Source of the DNA: Paramecium tetraurelia
Taxonomy: Eukaryota; Ciliophora; Oligohymenophorea; Peniculida; Parameciidae
NCBI RefSeq assembly: GCF_000165425.1
Contig: NW_001799624.1
Location: forward strand, 304,270-368,269
Direction: 5' to 3'
Length of the DNA stretch: 64,000 nucleotides
Below, piece by piece: positions 29,903-55,669 of this stretch. The notes beneath the pieces are model-generated. The model was not told the origin of the DNA. It saw nothing but the letters and a program-made list of their open reading frames with translations, and did no database searches. Position 1 is the first letter of the stretch, and each line of letters begins with the position of its first letter. A program made the translations under genes and the position numbers.

Positions 29903-30957
29903 ATGGATTAGAACGAATATTAATTGGAGATGAAGAAATTGTTTGAAGAAGTTGAGCTAAGATTTGATGTAATTCTGTAATTTAAATAAAGTCTTCCTTT
30001 GAAAAAATTAATGATTAAATTAACTCAATTATTTGCGATTTGGAGAATAATTTGGATTAAAATTTAAAATGTAACTACACAGAATCAATTGTCCACTAAT
30101 AAGATATTATTTTACCATTATCAAACTTACCAGATGTTCATAATGAATAACTTAGTCTTGAGTTGATATCTTTAACGAAGTTATATAAAGAATATCAAGT
30201 GAATTAGGTGAAGATATCCTTTAATTAACAATTAGAGAAATAAGCTTCACTTTAATAATAATAAATTGATAAATTAGAAAAAGAAAAAAGACAATTAGAA
30301 GATATTATTAAATCAAAGGATCGATAATTACAATCAAAGAACTCTGGTATTGAACAACTCTAAAGTTAACTTAAATAATAATAACAAATTGAAAAATGTG
30401 AAATGGAAAAAACGCAATTAGCGATATCAAGGAAATAGAATAAAAGTTAAATTGTTCTGATTGGATTCCCAGGAAGTGGTAAAACAAAATTATATAATTT
30501 AATATGTTAAACAAAACAACCTAAAAGTTTATCTCTTAGTATTCGAGAAGCATTCCTTAAAAAAGCTGCTTACGGAAGTGGATTTCAAGTGTTATATATT
30601 CCTGACTACGGATCATGTTAAGAGATAATTATTAATGCTGTATGCACATTAAATGCCGCTTTAGAAGGCCCAATTCACTAAATATTGTTAGTAGTTAGAG
30701 CGGAAAGAGTAGAAATTATACAGGAATATTTGAAAACAATGATTGTAAAATTTAGGCGATATAGACATCTTGTAACAGTTGCTGTTACACATTGGGATAC
30801 AAATGAAACTGAGACAACCAAGAAAGCAAATGAAGAATTGATTATCAAGTTGAGCAAAAACTTTGGAATAAATTCTGTTATTTTTGTATCTAAATTTGAT
30901 ACTGGTGAAAAAGTTTGTGCTTAAATTGATTCAATTTTAAATAAATGTTAAAGCTGA
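29903..30957 (+). CDS. AIG1-like P-loop GTPase with coiled-coil N-terminus, C-terminally truncated
   Basis: Product of 343 residues with a 23-nt intron (29969-29991). Residues about 60-180 form a Gln-rich coiled coil (LEKQASLQQQQIDKLEKEK). The GTPase domain starts at IVLIGFPGSGKTKL (G1) and ends with VAVTHWDTNE (G4) and VIFVSKFDTGEKV. The G3 motif has decayed to YIPDYGS where the paralogue at 52251-53639 has DTPGYGS. A TGA at 30955-30957 stops the frame, yet the next 42 codons, in the same frame to TGA 31081-31083 (KLTEAELYSNFDLIEQ), are still clearly homologous to that paralogue (KLTDAEFYSNFELVEL). Either the gene ends early or a 33-nt intron removes the TGA. Possibly inactive. Confidence 0.62.
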
Positions 30958-31130
30958 AAATTTTGGAAACTAACTGAAGCAGAGTTATATTCCAATTTTG
31001 ATTTAATTGAATAGAAGGAAGAAGTTGAAATGGATTTAGACTTTTCAAAAGACGATGTACACTCAAAATAATTCAGATTGTGATATTTTAATAATTTTAT
31101 TATTTTAAAAATGTTTTTATCTTTTAATTT

Positions 31131-31333
31131 ATCGTGATGTCATAAATGGGCATGCTTTGGGAAATGTTTCCCCTAACCCTTCCCTGGGGCCTGAGGGACG
31201 GTGGAAGAGCTAGAGAGATCATGATGACGTCGAGAAGCAAACGATAAAACAAGGGGAAAGAAGGTGAGGTTTAAAGGTGATGGTGCCCCCCTAAACCCGG
31301 TCGAGCCTAGCTGCTCGGAGGAGGATGTTTAAT
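31131..31333 (+). ncRNA. G+C-rich island with stem-forming segments, candidate structured RNA
   Basis: About 200 bp of roughly half G+C inside DNA near 25% G+C. It carries no open frame in either strand with conserved content. Complementary segments on one strand include GTTTCCCCT with AGGGGAAA (about 85 nt apart), GGTTTA with TAAACC, and the hairpin CGAGC-CTAGCT-GCTCG. A T-rich run follows the right edge. No match to tRNA, U1-U6, SRP or telomerase template motifs could be recognised. It sits where the decayed GTPase copy has lost its zinc-binding segment. The strand is assumed. An inserted foreign fragment is the alternative. Confidence 0.4.
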
Positions 31334-31337
31334 TGAA

Positions 31338-31523
31338 TTGAATTATTATTTTTGACCATTATCAAATAAATTACGATAAGAACTAATTGATCCAGGAATT
31401 ATGGATTATTTAACTTTGGAAGTTCAATAATACGAATTGAGGGAAACCTTAAGGAAATCTTAACAGTCTTTAAGCAATTAGATAGAAGAGATAAAGCAAA
31501 AATCCAAAGTAATTAAATTATGA
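31338..31523 (+). pseudogene. C-terminal relic of the AIG1-like GTPase
   Basis: Reads RQELIDPGIMDYLTLEV, then a helical tail ending KQKSKVIKL and TGA 31521-31523. This is homologous to the last 50 residues of the intact paralogue at 52251-53639 (KELIDPGLMDYFAQEV ... KSETKVIRL). It is in a different frame from the upstream GTPase part and separated from it by the G+C-rich island. The segment encoding the Cys-rich zinc domain is missing, so the reading unit is broken. Confidence 0.75.
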
Positions 31524-32189
31524 AATTATTAATAAAAGTATTTATCAATTATAAAAATTCTGAATTGAAATTATGCTCTATCAAATTAGAGTAACACAAC
31601 AGCTTTAAAACTGAGTAGATGAATACAATCTAATTTATTAACCAAGGAGTATAGATCAAAATTCATATAATCTGATGAACATATAATTATTATACTGATT
31701 TACAAAGAATCTTGTAAAAAGATAAATGGCTATCAATTTTCTTTATTCATTCAAGAATAGTTTGAAATTTCTCCCTTACTTCTTTCCAAATCTTTTTTAA
31801 ACTGTTAAGTTTGAGTATCATAAAGATTGCTTCCATACCAGAATGCTACGTTTACATAATTTAGCATTACTATAGTATTAATAGTATTAACATATAAAAA
31901 CATAAAATCATATCACTTCTCTCATTATATTACTGCCCCTTTAAAGAATAATTGAATTAGGTTTTGAGTAGCTGGATAATATTACCAAGATCTGATTAAT
32001 TTAAAATTTAGACTAAAATTCTAAAAAATGCTCCCACTGCCTCTCAAAAAACAATTTATATATCATTGAATATAATTCATAATTGTATAGTAAATTAATA
32101 TTTTTGTTATTTTAATATCTAAATAATTAATGATAATTGGGATATCTATATAAAATAGGATTTATATTATTATATTTATAATTATTTAA
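31524..32189. other. A+T-rich spacer
   Basis: No frame with a recognisable domain. It lies between the GTPase relic and the inverted pseudogene that follows. Confidence 0.4.
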
Positions 32190-33490
32190 TATCGACACCT
32201 AAATTTTTCATCCTATATCTCCCAATCAGATAATTATTATTGATCCTATCTAATTTTATATGATATGTCTCTATATTATTCTCCTTTCTTGTACAATGTA
32301 TCCTTTATAATTCTAATTTCCTTCTCTACTATTTCTTTTTATTATTTATCATAATCTATTTAGGTTTTAAAATTCTTCATTTAATCTGCTTAAATTTGCT
32401 TGTTAATGTTTATTATTATTATTGATCTGCAATCTCATTTTCCTATTCAAATATTGTATTAGAGAAGTCAATTAATATGCGTCTACATTTTCTAACGTTT
32501 TGAACAGAGCATTATATTTATTTGAAGGGGAATCGTTTGATAAAAAGCTTAATTGTTATAAAGCAAAAGTGGCTAAATGTTTTTTGTAACTCTAACTTTT
32601 AGGATTATTCACATTAATATTAATTAACAATTAAAGCTATTCTGTTTCTTTCTAAATATCGATTTTCTTAATAATATTAATAATTCTTTAAATCATGATA
32701 CATTAAAAAAGTAAACTATTTATAATTCAATATCTCTGTTCTTTCAAACGAAACAAAAATGAAATGAATAGAATAGAATTTTTACTAAAGTAATCTCTAA
32801 AAGTTGATATTGTATTTTCACTATCTTTTTCAAAGTCAAATAATGGAGGATTATGGAACTGGTATTGATTATTGAAATTTGCTCAAAATTAGATCTCTAT
32901 CTCGAATTCTCTGTTGAAAATTTTCTTAGATTATTTTAAAAGCCTTTTTTTCCTTCTTCATCTGATAAAAACATAATTTATAGTTTTTGTTTGAATCTTA
33001 TTATTAATATGTTTAACTTATTTGATCAATTATTCTAAATTGAGACTTTTCGTAAGCAGCATTTCCTACTTAACTTTAGCTTACATAGAATGCTTTATTT
33101 TACATGTAGGGCAAATAATTACAGGAAGTTGAATTATTATTCAGCAAAATTTATACTTGAGAAAGCTTCTCTAAAACATATGAAGGCTTTGAGTCATAAA
33201 ATCATTTGCAATCATAATTTGGGCAGTATTAAAAGAAGGATATTAACTTTGACTTGTCATAACAAATTTTTTCAAATTACTTCTTTTTGTTTATAAAATT
33301 TCCCTTCTATGAGCTTCCATCGTAAAGAAATTTCAGATAGAAAATTTAAATTTGCTATTTGCAAAATTTAGGCAAAAACTTATTCTAAAAGAATGGTCTT
33401 AACATTCTTCATAATTTACTACATTCCCAAAAAAATAGCATCATAAGTATTGTTTGCATTATCATAATATTTACTCTCAAATCTGACTTT
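32190..33490 (-). pseudogene. Inverted decayed copy of the pseudo-GTPase gene at 53830-55669
   Basis: The minus strand here aligns nearly base for base with plus-strand DNA from about 54340 to 55669; long identical runs lie at 32880-32910 and in the segment 33060-33290. It carries a one-base deletion near 32917 relative to the other copy and a 32-bp insertion at 32701-32732 flanked by TA. The 5' third of the gene is not recognisable beyond 33490. The frame is not restorable by micro-introns alone, so it is called a pseudogene. Confidence 0.75.
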
Positions 33491-33969
33491 GTTGAAAATA
33501 TTTATGCATAAATTGATTCAATGTTATTTCATTTTTCAATTGAAAATGCTTAATTAACTATAAAAGGAAGAGGTACTTTATATTCACAAATAGTAAAGAA
33601 ATAGTAATTAAAATAACTAAATTTTGGTTAGAGAATTTCATGAGAAAATCTTTTGATGCATGAAGAATAAATTTACCCGCTTTGGCGACCAAAGTAGTTT
33701 ACAGGATAATAAATGAAGCACTTTTTTTCAATTTTATCAAGGCCTTATGTCTTTTTTGTTTACAATCATGGTACTTTAGATATGTAAAAACTAATTTAAC
33801 AAATCTATTGTAATTGGATCTGTGGGTTAACAAATATGGATAATTTCCTGAAGTTGATGAATACTCTTTTTTCAAAAATAAAACATTTCATAAGGATTCA
33901 CATTCAAGATTTAAAAAAAGGAATAAGCTTGCTATAATCAAAGAAGTTTCTATATTATAGAAAACTGCT
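33491..33969. other. A+T-rich, diverged remnant
   Basis: By position this should hold the 5' third of the inverted pseudo-GTPase copy and the divergent promoter, but no similarity to 53640-54340 could be followed by eye. Confidence 0.35.
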
Positions 33970-34059
33970 AAACTCTATCCTTAACCATAAGCTGATCCAG
34001 AACTTATCGATTATTTTACTCAAGAAGTTCAATAAAAAGAATTGGAAAAAAACTTATGA
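33970..34059 (+). pseudogene. Second short C-terminal relic of the AIG1-like GTPase
   Basis: Thirty codons read ADPELIDYFTQEVQQKELEK before TGA 34057-34059, matching the IDPGLMDYFAQEVPKEELRN segment of the intact GTPase. Its position and strand relative to the inverted pseudogene mirror the intact pair at 52-56 kb, so this is probably the remains of that pair's GTPase member. Confidence 0.6.
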
Positions 34060-34207
34060 AAACATAGAAATCCTTCACAATTATATGGATAATCTACTAA
34101 GACAAAGTTATAAATTATAAATTGTTAATAAAAATTATTTTATCCTGAACCCACATCATTCAAATATTAAAGAAATGATCTTATTTAATAATAAAGCAGT
34201 GTCTACA

Positions 34208-52250: not shown

Positions 52251-53639
52251 TCATAATCTAATTACTTTAGTTTCACTTTTTGCTTAATCGACTTAACTTT
52301 AAACAGATTTTTAAGCTTTCATTAAAATATTCCTCAACTCTTCCTTAGGAACCTCTTAAGCGAAATAATCCATAAGTCCAGGATCAATTAGCTCTTTTAA
52401 TTATTAAGGTGAAAGAGCAGGAATATCAACCCAAATAATTTCTTTACCGCATCCCAGTTTTTTTTGGTTTTTTTCAGAGGGATCAACATATTTTTTAGGA
52501 TGAGTAATTTATGATTTTTACATAAAGTCTTTGTTTTCCGTATAACTTACTCCTTTATCTGATATATTAAATGTGTATCTTGAATGAAATTTATACTTTT
52601 CAAATTTGTTATCATCTTTATCAGGAAAATTTCCACAAGTTGTACCATATTAACATCCGGATACTTTTAACCAAATAAGTCCACAGTGAGGGCAGGCTTT
52701 AATAAAATTGAAAAAATGCTCTTCATTATTTTTCATTTTTTATTGAGTAAGCTTTACAATATCTTCAATATCTACCATCACAGCCTTCTTTAATTCAAAA
52801 TGAACTAGATAGGCAAGACTAGGATTTTAATGATACTCAAACAATTTAGAAAATTCTGCATTATTTTTTATTTCAAAATCTGTGATTAAGTTTTCTGCTA
52901 TTTTTTTTGTCTCTAAAGCCAAATAATGCATTATTTCATGCATTGATTTGTCTTTCTCATCAAAATCTTTAATATATTACCTTATAACATTTGCTAATTT
53001 TCTAAAGTTTTAGATTACATCTTCCTTTTTACATTCTAATTCAAATTCAATTTCATCTTATAATTCAACTAATTCAAAATTAGAATAAAATTCTGCATCC
53101 GTTAATTTAACATCTTGTGCTTAGCATCGATCCAAAATAGAATCAATTTATGCACAAATCTTTTCACCAGTATCAAATTTGGATACAAATATCACAGAAT
53201 TTATTTTATATGAAGCTGCCAACTTTCTTACTTATTCCTCATTTTTTTATATAGTTGACAAATCTGCAGTATCCCAATGTGTCACAGCAATTGTTAAAAG
53301 ATGTCTAAATCTTTAAAATTTTACAACAATGAATTTGATATAGTCTTACATTAAGTCTATTCTTTCCCATTTAACAACTATAAATATTTAATTAACTGGG
53401 CCTTCAGTTAGTGCATTTAAAACACTTACAGCATGAATAATTTTCTCCGATTTTGATCCGTAACCTGGAGTATCTAATACTCGAAATCCACTTCCAAAAG
53501 CAGCCTCTTTTAAAAATGTTTATCTCGTAAGTGACATACCTCCTGATTGTGTAGGTTAGTTTGTTTTACATATTTTATTGAAAAAGGTGGTTTTCCCACT
53601 CCCAGTGAACCCTGTAAGTACAGCCTATCTTCTACTCAT
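52251..53639 (-). CDS. AIG1-like P-loop GTPase with Cys-rich zinc domain
   Basis: Intronless, 462 residues. The start MSRRQAVLTGFTGSGKTTFF is a full G1 loop. SLTRQTFLKEAAFGSGFRV and DTPGYGSKSEK supply switch and G3 motifs, IAVTHWDTADL the G4 and VIFVSKFDTGEK the G5 region. After a helical linker, a Cys/His cluster follows: KACPHCGLIWLKVSGCQY, TTCGNFPDK and LGCGKEIIWVDIP, enough for one zinc site and unusual for AIG1 proteins. The end KELIDPGLMDYFAQEV is shared with the decayed copies at 31-34 kb. Transcribed divergently from the neighbouring pseudo-GTPase. AIG1/GIMAP GTPases oligomerise on membranes; a comparable role is inference. Confidence 0.87.
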
Positions 53640-53829
53640 TTTACTTTCTCTAATTTTTTATTTATATCATGAAATGTTTTAGAATTACTTTAAAACTCCA
53701 TTTCAATTCTATTATAAGATGGTTATTAGAAATTATATAAAAATATTCTATTAAATAGTTTATTATAGAAATTATTATCAATTTCGGTTTATAACACTGC
53801 TTTATATTTCAAAGATTAATTTTAGAAAC
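53640..53829. promoter_or_regulatory. 190-bp divergent promoter region
   Basis: Separates the ATG of the GTPase (minus) from the ATG of its partner (plus). Such spacing would allow shared regulation. No defined element was identified. Confidence 0.45.
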
Positions 53830-55669
53830 ATGGCAAGATCATTAATTATCCTATTAGGAAATGATTAAAAGGTAAAGGACTCTATTTTTTATGAATATTC
53901 TGGAATTGACAATCAGAATGAATATATTGCTTTACCCTATTCAAATCCAGTTCCAAGTAGTGTTTTTAAAGATTAATATCATAATTATCAAATACTAAAT
54001 ACTCCAAGTACAAATAAAAAAGATGAATTATATTCCCTGTGGAAAAATCTAATATCAATTTCTAAGTAGGAAAATTTGGAGTTAGCAACAATTATATATT
54101 GTTTTATGGATCCTATTATAGAGGTACATTAATTATTAAATGATTTGCACAAATAAATGGGTTTTAAATTAGATCAAAATGAAATTATACTATTAACATC
54201 ATCTGAAAATTTAGTCGATCAAAAGTGCAATTTTACAAATACCAATACTTTTTAATGTATTCAACTAAATTCAGCTAAACCACAGACCATTTTACAATAA
54301 ATTTAAAAAAAAAAATTTATAAAATTGTAAAATTTGAGGCTAAAACTTTAAAAAGAGAATAGATATTATGATATTGCAAAAGATATTTGTGATGCTATTT
54401 TTTTGGAAATACAGTAAATTGTGAAGAAAAGTTACAAATAAACAGATTTTATTAAAACCATTCTTTAAGAATAAGTATTTTCTTAGATTTTGCCAAAAGC
54501 AAATTTAAATTTCACATCTGAAATTTCTTTGTTTACTATAGAAGTTTATATTAGGGAAATTTTTTACAACAAAAAAAATGAATTCGAAAAAATTTGTTAG
54601 AACAAGTCAATGTTACAATCCTTCTTTTAATATTGGCTCAAATTATGATTGCATTTGGTTGTATGACTCAAAGCCTTAATTTGAATTAGAGAAGCTTTCT
54701 CAAATATAAATTTTGCTGAATAATAATTCACCTTCCTTAAATTATTGCCCTATATGTTAAAATAAAACATTTTATGTAATCTATAGATAAGTAGTAGATG
54801 CTGCTTACGAAGAGGTTCAATTTAGAATAATTGATCAAATAAGTTAAACATATTAATAATAAGATTCAAACGAAATACTATAAATTATGTTTTTATCAAA
54901 TGAAGAAGAAGAAAAAAAAAAGGTTTTTTACTTAATCTAAGAAAATTGTTCAACCGAGAATTCGAGATAGAGATCTAATTTTGAGCAAACTTCAATAATC
55001 AATAATAAATACCGGTTCCATAATCCTCCATTATTTGATTTTGAAAAAGATAGTGAAAATACAATAACAACCTTTAGAGATTATTTTAGTAACAATTCTA
55101 TTCATTTTTTTTTCATTTTTATAAAGTTTGAAAGAACAGATATCATGATTTAAAGAATTACTAAAATAATTAAGAAAATCTATCATTTAGAAAGAAACAG
55201 AATAGCTTTAATTGTAAATTAATGTGAATGTGAATAATACTAAAAGTTAGAGTTACAAAAAAGATTTAGTTACTTTGGCTTTAAAACTATAGAGTTTTTT
55301 TCAAACGATTCCCCTTAAGATATATGCAATGCCCTGTTTAAAACTTTAGAAAATGTAGATGCATAAAGATTTGATTTTTCTAATACAATTTTTGAATAAG
55401 AAAATGAGATTGCAGATCAATAATAATAATAAATGAAAGAAAATCTTATAAACGTTAGCAAGCAAATTGAAGCAGATTAAATATAGAAATTTAAAACCTA
55501 AATGGCTTAGGATAAAGAATAATAAGAAATATTAAACAGGGAAATTAGAGATTTAGAGGAGACATTGTATAAGAAAAGAGAATAATAAAGAGATATATCA
55601 TATAAAATTAGATAAGATTAATAAGAATTATATGATTGGGAAAGATAGTATCGAAAATTTAAGTATTGA
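53830..55669 (+). CDS. Pseudo-GTPase-like partner protein with internal Cys motif
   Basis: About 612 residues, intronless. The N-terminal part (MARSLIILLGNDQKVKDS, then YQILNTPSTNKKDELYSLW and IILLTSSENLVD) follows the G1-G3-G4 spacing of a GTPase but lacks the P-loop Lys/Ser. The middle has a CPIC pair with another Cys upstream. The second half (FFFIFIKFERTDIMIQRITK ... IALIVNQCECE) aligns with the neighbour's IFIVVKWERIDLMQDYIK ... IAVTHWD, with the NKxD/HWD residues lost. It ends in a coiled coil (LEETLYKKREQQRDISYK). The frame changes by one base within the A8 run near 54570-54577; see findings. It is not in frame without correction or frameshift. Confidence 0.7.

Follow-up and report, generated by a model that had tools for sequence, protein, structure and literature searches.

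We studied two neighbouring genes, here named A and B, in a 64,000-nucleotide stretch of the Paramecium tetraurelia genome (positions 304270 to 368269 of contig C205; hereafter the window), which reads with genetic code 6. With a probability that we put at roughly 0.55, A and B form a heterotypic GTPase pair of septin or GIMAP likeness that recurs in this genome; the partner would regulate A or serve it as a scaffold, in some cases as a pseudo-GTPase. Comparisons of the predicted proteins showed that A is a putative GTPase with intact motifs, evolving under purifying selection, and that its neighbour carries a predicted G domain of a second GTPase subfamily and a tail that by eye looks like a coiled coil. 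They also showed that the partner can exist as a predicted pseudo-GTPase, since the partner domains of two loci, the intact one on contig C132 and that of the window, are devoid of a P-loop. Neighbouring A-type and partner genes were found elsewhere in the same genome, of which 69.07 Mb in 231 contigs was searched (see below). C-numbers denote contigs of this genome, and A_x and B_x the A gene and the partner on contig x.

A first-pass annotation, made from the sequence alone, had placed A and B head to head and 190 bp apart, and these coordinates hold. The features of the pair are as follows (position, strand, description):

52251-53639, minus: gene A, predicted TRAFAC GTPase of 462 aa with G domain, helical stretch and C-terminal Cys module (MMR_HSR1, 30.5 bits)
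53589-53612, minus: A, G1/P-loop GFTGSGKT
53463-53474, minus: A, G3 motif DTPG (D56, T57, P58, G59)
53349-53372, minus: A, KWERIDLM box with Arg93
53271-53282, minus: A, G4-like THWD (D123)
52632-52694, minus: A, Cys module CPHC...GCxxxTxCG (C316, C319, C329, C335)
52443-52454, minus: A, further Cys in GCGK (C397)
53640-53829, no strand: 190 bp intergenic stretch separating the divergent starts of A and B, GC content 0.168
53830-54648, plus: gene B, open reading frame (ORF) 1, N-terminal alpha/beta-like region and helical stretch, ended by the TGA at 54646-54648
54634-54640, plus: gene B, frame change of +1 base relative to the paralogue B', at about the position of the first Cys knuckle
54641-55669, plus: gene B, ORF2, its frame open from 54425 and the homologous reading starting at about 54641
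54746-54757, plus: B, CPIC knuckle
54908-55477, plus: B, degenerate second G domain lacking P-loop, DTPG and TxxD, with FERTDIM kept (55127-55147)
55418-55666, plus: B, Gln-rich C-terminal tail, of coiled-coil look by eye only

Gene A is a putative GTPase with a conserved Cys module

Translation with code 6 gave A as a single open frame of 462 codons. Its product had been described as an apparently active AIG1-like GTPase with a Cys-rich insert. The GTPase part of this description stood: GFTGSGKT, DTPG and THWD are present, the protein passed the cut-off of the Pfam family MMR_HSR1 (PF01926; 30.5 against 21.9 bits), and a P-loop of the form GxxxxGK[ST] together with DxxG places it among the TRAFAC GTPases. 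The AIG1 label was loose, and no match of A to AIG1 (PF04548) was obtained within an expect value (E) of 1. The Cys cluster is likewise real, with residues at CPHC, GCQYGTTCG and GCGK, but it is C-terminal, beyond the helical stretch, and not an insert inside the G domain.

The A-type proteins of eight genes of this genome were aligned, the rows of C45 and C224 beginning past the P-loop. DTPG, D123 of THWD, C316, C319, W323, K325, G328, C329, T333, C335, G336 and C397 were invariant in 8/8 rows; the five Cys among them would be the ligands of a putative zinc-binding module. By eye, A_C224 (L037:685-800) shows a one-base frame break within its P-loop codons. The Cys module found no better match in the PDB than one of E 0.59, and a DUF7296 match over the region was weak and below cut-off (16.9 against 27 bits). 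These genes would represent a ciliate GTPase family whose conserved Cys module Pfam does not recognise at its cut-offs.

The ratio of nonsynonymous to synonymous rates (dN/dS) of A was 0.24 against A_C45, with dS near saturation, and 0.38 against A', a decayed copy within the window (see below), with dS high. A single-sequence AlphaFold model of A was too poor for use, having a mean predicted local distance difference test (pLDDT) score of 38.2. Searches for relatives in viral and in bacterial and archaeal contigs gave 94 and 64 pattern matches, respectively, none of them confirmed, in collections from which records close to the genome of the window were possibly excluded.

The partner domain belongs to a second subfamily

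The ORF2 protein of B alone matched a profile of seven other second-subfamily G domains, built without window B, with E 3.9e-21 (72.6 bits), and the A-type profile with E 1.2e-6. A three-row profile that combined the B domains from the window, C224 and C38 matched the A domains at 99.6% (E 1.7e-23), and 0/60 shuffles did as well. As had been annotated, the guanine-binding residues are absent from this domain: P-loop, DTPG and TxxD are all gone. Homology kept and motifs lost confirmed the second domain of B as a predicted G domain of pseudo-GTPase type.

The same annotation had seen two degenerate G domains in B, and only the second could be upheld. The first had no support in the window protein, for which 32/60 shuffles scored as well against the A family (6/60 with the three-row profile). 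The N-terminal region of the C224 and C38 partners showed a collinear, weak likeness to the A-type G domain (1/80 shuffles as good, hhalign probability 2%), and 59/80 shuffles were as good against the second subfamily; the first CxxC knuckle of these partners resembled that of A (0/80 shuffles as good, probability 15%). These comparisons suggest that in some partners (C224, C38) a second-subfamily domain may be fused to a module that is A-like but degraded. The single-sequence AlphaFold model of the B ORF1 has a beta-alpha order as in a G domain, but its pLDDT of 44.6 was too poor for use, and a Foldseek search with it returned nothing at E <= 0.001.

The match by which the second domain of B had originally been aligned with A, FIFIKFERTDIMIQ / FIVVKWERIDLMQD, proved to be real and a family-wide motif, the Arg of which was invariant in 16/16 aligned G domains. 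This Arg, R93, which sits between G3 and G4, and K16 were the sole invariants of the alignment. The Lys of the window B aligned to K16 lies outside any P-loop; therefore R93, in the ERxDxM box, is the sole credible invariant. The C132 partner also carries it, by eye, in DQERNDIV.

Trees built from 16 and from 17 G domains placed the A-type domains on one side of a branch with 100/100 support and grouped the partner domains, across it, with seven free-standing GTPases. The pair is therefore neither a tandem duplication of one gene nor a catalytic copy next to a dead one, and the origin of B as a broken duplicate of A is ruled out by the separate clades. GTPases of a second family, at L045, L046, L048, L049 and L050, have the motif FERTDLMKKK and a C-terminal DTIFE; some of them present MGxxCC-like starts or hydrophobic N-terminal stretches and are perhaps membrane-tethered.

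The pair recurs across the genome

Whole-genome searches with P0001, P0003, P0004 and P0005 revealed five B-type loci, all of which adjoin an A-type gene or a remnant of one. The pair on C132 was missed by these searches and was found by reading the neighbour of A_C132 and by a profile search. The pairs are:

Window, 52-55 kb: divergent, B frame-broken
Window, 30-34 kb: decayed, A' and B' facing each other in convergent orientation, a further A fragment beyond B'
C224: tandem, 147 bp apart
C171 (L044): tandem, decayed copy of the C224 pair
C38: tandem, A and B within one TGA-free frame
C132: tandem, about 94 bp apart

The second, decayed pair of the window, at about 30.4-34.1 kb, was absent from the first-pass annotation. 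Its components are:

30439-31520, plus: A', a decayed copy of A type, matched as two pieces that both contain a TGA; a GC-rich dispersed repeat has taken the place of the intervening Cys region
32134-33490, minus: B', decayed B copy with TGAs and 14 indels relative to B, of which 13 have a length not divisible by 3
33712-34119, plus: fragment of a further A-type C-terminal half, adjoining B'

The head-to-head layout did not survive as a conserved feature, C224, C38, C171 and C132 all being tandem; the orientation of the pair is incidental. Eight intact-looking A genes were counted: four have a partner (window, C224, C38 and C132), three form a tandem array on C82 and one is A_C45, whose flank was masked on one side. 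Second-subfamily genes numbered 18, namely those on C39, C185, C49 (two), C30 (two), C6 (two), C19, C193, C48, C174 and C204 (two) plus the window, C224, C38 and C132 partners; C136, which repeats C49, was left uncounted, and the family counts are lower bounds. Four of the 18 adjoin one of the eight A genes. None of the other 14 shares its contig with a full-length A-type place, and for seven of them a reading of the flanks revealed no A-type gene. The chance of 4/18 adjacency, calculated post hoc, is about 1e-10 with 38,000 genes assumed, and 3e-9 if 40 second-subfamily genes exist. Neighbouring A and partner genes are more frequent than chance would have it.

The members of these pairs have diverged far: window A is 32-34% identical to the A proteins of C224, C38 and C132, and the partners of C224 and C38 share about 32-37% identity with each other. 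These two partners, of 699 and 624 aa respectively, have a common layout, i.e., an N-terminal region with no P-loop, CxxC knuckles at about 280 and 308, the second G domain and a charged, Gln-rich tail. Their second G domain keeps a P-loop (GMGGVGKT or GKTGVGKT) and DTPPFE. The C132 partner has 537 codons free of TGA, matched the second-subfamily profile with E 4.9e-18 and gave no match to the A profile at E <= 1e-3; it presents FISKEQDIKNK at the P-loop position, NTPEF, and a long Gln-rich tail.

The earlier proposal of an active GTPase with a non-catalytic partner is supported as a recurring arrangement by the adjacency at the window, C224, C38, C132 and two decayed places; the partner domain keeps its P-loop at C224 and C38 and lacks it at C132 and in the window. 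The zinc-type modules ascribed to the partner are represented by knuckles at C224, C38 and, in part, the window, but not at C132. Among the matches listed in literature searches, judged by title and the start of the abstract, no publication on this pair was found.

Frame of gene B and alternative explanations

Several results weigh against a functional A/B pair. Window B is frame-broken: ORF1 (53830-54648) stops after 272 codons at the TGA, and ORF2, one frame over, runs to 55669, so the initial description of B as one continuous protein had to be given up. Differences between B and B' in ORF2 are nearly even over the codon positions (42:34:46), which speaks for a weak constraint on B. Partners also differ in architecture, because homology between the window ORF1 and the N-terminal parts of the C224 and C38 partners was undetectable (42/100 shuffles as good) and the C132 partner has no CxxC. 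Three of the eight A genes, those of the C82 array, had no partner in the flanks read. Finally, a clade uniting all four partner domains appeared in 0% of 200 bootstrap trees and was not rejected by the approximately unbiased test (p-AU 0.166), and one of three partner domains appeared in 10% (p-AU 0.415). Given that no partner clade is supported and that the window and C132 partner domains form long branches, the pairing may have arisen more than once.

The decayed paralogue B' crosses the break site of B in a single frame, and in the DNA alignment B is longer at this site (~54634-54640) by exactly one base. We think, without certainty, that the break is a one-base indel, either a fresh lesion or an assembly error. 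The latter is possible given the single-base indels between the near-identical contigs C49 (L046) and C136 (L047), which over 6758 bases (6.76 kb) are 99.8% identical; of the 12 differences, 9 are single-base gaps and 3 are mismatches, and 10 fall within 160 bases and at least one breaks an ORF. Such indels hint at indel errors or macronuclear variants in the assembly.

An intron was also considered as the cause of the frame change. Thirteen GT..AG removals of 15-120 nt would restore an open frame in B, two of them of 25 nt and the others of 43-100 nt, so that most are too long for a species in which ~98% of introns measure 20-30 nt, according to PMC5485702. The two options of 25 nt (54421-54445 and 54475-54499) would both shift 54500-54634 into the ORF2 frame. 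However, 10/20 of the B-B' differences in 54499-54634 fall at third positions of the ORF1 frame, and upstream, in 54330-54498, the distribution is 6:9:6 with no such peak. Modest as this evidence is, it fits the ORF1 frame, and the intron is therefore disfavoured. An example of an intron, a 23-nt GT..TAG stretch, was read by eye on C45.

It is quite possible that the window B is a decaying gene, i.e., that an ancestor had a working pair, the 30-34 kb copy is long dead, the B of 52-55 kb is freshly dead and A was left alone. The frame change with its TGA, the near-uniform codon-position differences and the lost nucleotide-binding motifs of the second G domain would fit such a history, as would the dead copies in the window and on C171. 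However, B bears a single lesion in 1.84 kb and its ORF pieces have no TGA in 611 codons, where about 14 were expected from first-order shuffles (about 5.5 + 8.7), with the proviso that the pieces were cut at the break and hence are open there by choice; this compares with the 13 frame-breaking indels between B and B'. For this reason B seems to have remained coding long after the death of B'. The lesion itself may belong to the assembly, as said above, and the existence of an intact P-loop-less partner on C132 means that motif loss alone is no proof of decay.

That the adjacency is inherited baggage, two functionally unrelated neighbours having been co-duplicated a few times, appears unlikely. 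The pairs on C224 and C171 are duplicates, as are the two of the window, which leaves four independent lineages at most, and the tandem layout common to C224, C38, C171 and C132 would agree with shared descent. Yet the adjacency persists despite the different orientation in the window and the far divergence of both genes, and the partners are, like A, GTPase-domain proteins. We regard as very improbable that the partners are self-sufficient GTPases, which those of C224 and C38 could be, and that A is only their paralogue. The second domains of P0004 and P0005 do have their own P-loop and DTPP, but this explanation leaves unaccounted for both the adjacency of A and the P-loop-less partners of the window and C132.

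Comparison with known GTPases and proposed working of the pair

A profile of the 16 G domains retrieved Der first from the PDB, then septins and GIMAPs among others. Der/EngA, with two G domains in one chain, and other MMR_HSR1 proteins thus gave the best profile matches, but the match is at superfamily level only. We know of no Cys module in Der. The G domain of A remained below the cut-off of Septin (PF00735; 15.9 against 26.2 bits), a family matched by 5/16 domains at E <= 1. Septins are also TRAFAC G domains with duplicated subunits, and, according to PMC10731463, some subunits lose GTPase motifs and activity, retain the G interface and through it are placed in a defined hetero-oligomer. 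Here, in contrast, the G domain of the partner is from another subfamily and is accompanied by CxxC knuckles.

With GIMAP/AIG1 proteins the pair has in common the G domain and tandem arrays and, as predicted, coiled coils and an association with membranes. AIG1 was matched by 5/16 G domains at E <= 1 (best E 1.1e-5), and among the members listed singly the A of C132 came nearest to its cut-off (25.3 against 27 bits). Excerpts of the literature mention AIG genes with two AIG1 domains (PMC7053062) and an activation of GIMAP2 by GIMAP7, which dimerises and supplies an arginine finger (PMC8066113). A differs from these proteins in falling below the AIG1 cut-off, and neither a Cys module nor a heterotypic gene pair is described for GIMAPs in the excerpts at hand. 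Two places of the genome do pass the AIG1 cut-off, L052 (C179) and L053 (C153); by eye they fall into a different GTPase family, which has Cys/His clusters at the C-terminus, and one of them has two P-loop-like domains in a single chain.

If A and B are a heterotypic pair, A and its partner would associate via their G domains on a membrane, by analogy with septins and GIMAPs, and the partner would serve as a scaffold and as an activator or brake of GTP hydrolysis by A. The ERxDxM Arg, which partners retain although nucleotide binding was lost, could act in trans on A. The conserved box of GIMAPs presumably lies between G3 and G4, at the same place as Arg93, which may be the equivalent of the catalytic GIMAP Arg. 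B_C224 starts with MGVCC and A_C224 ends with CIIS, presumably acylation and prenylation signals, and in some pairs such membrane anchors might hold the complex.

A more specific version of this scheme is speculative and rather doubtful: the partner would be a dedicated trans-acting subunit providing the ERxDxM Arg, its own nucleotide site having decayed in the window and C132, and GTP hydrolysis by A would fire only in the complex on the membrane. The pair would then be a fast-evolving, ciliate-specific scaffold of GIMAP/septin type, perhaps for cell-autonomous defence or the control of intracellular bacteria. If the pairing is functional, this genome holds pairs at different stages, with partners that have a P-loop (C224, C38), an intact partner devoid of it (C132), a frame-changed one also devoid of it (window) and dead copies, and the step from GTPase partner to pseudo-GTPase would be open to direct test.

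A dispersed repeat inside the decayed A copy

The GC-rich element inside the dead A' (window 31130-31340) is about 200-250 bp long and reaches a GC content of 0.58 in 50-base steps. It gave no Rfam match at E <= 1. Three near-full copies at 85-88% identity were found elsewhere in the genome (C172:232112-232304, C91:140504-140703 and C230:105493-105695), together with four more partial copies at 76-88% identity. The copies share an AT-rich 5' flank and a TTGAA-type tail, and the repeat has the look of a small, non-autonomous element or of an RNA gene not described before.

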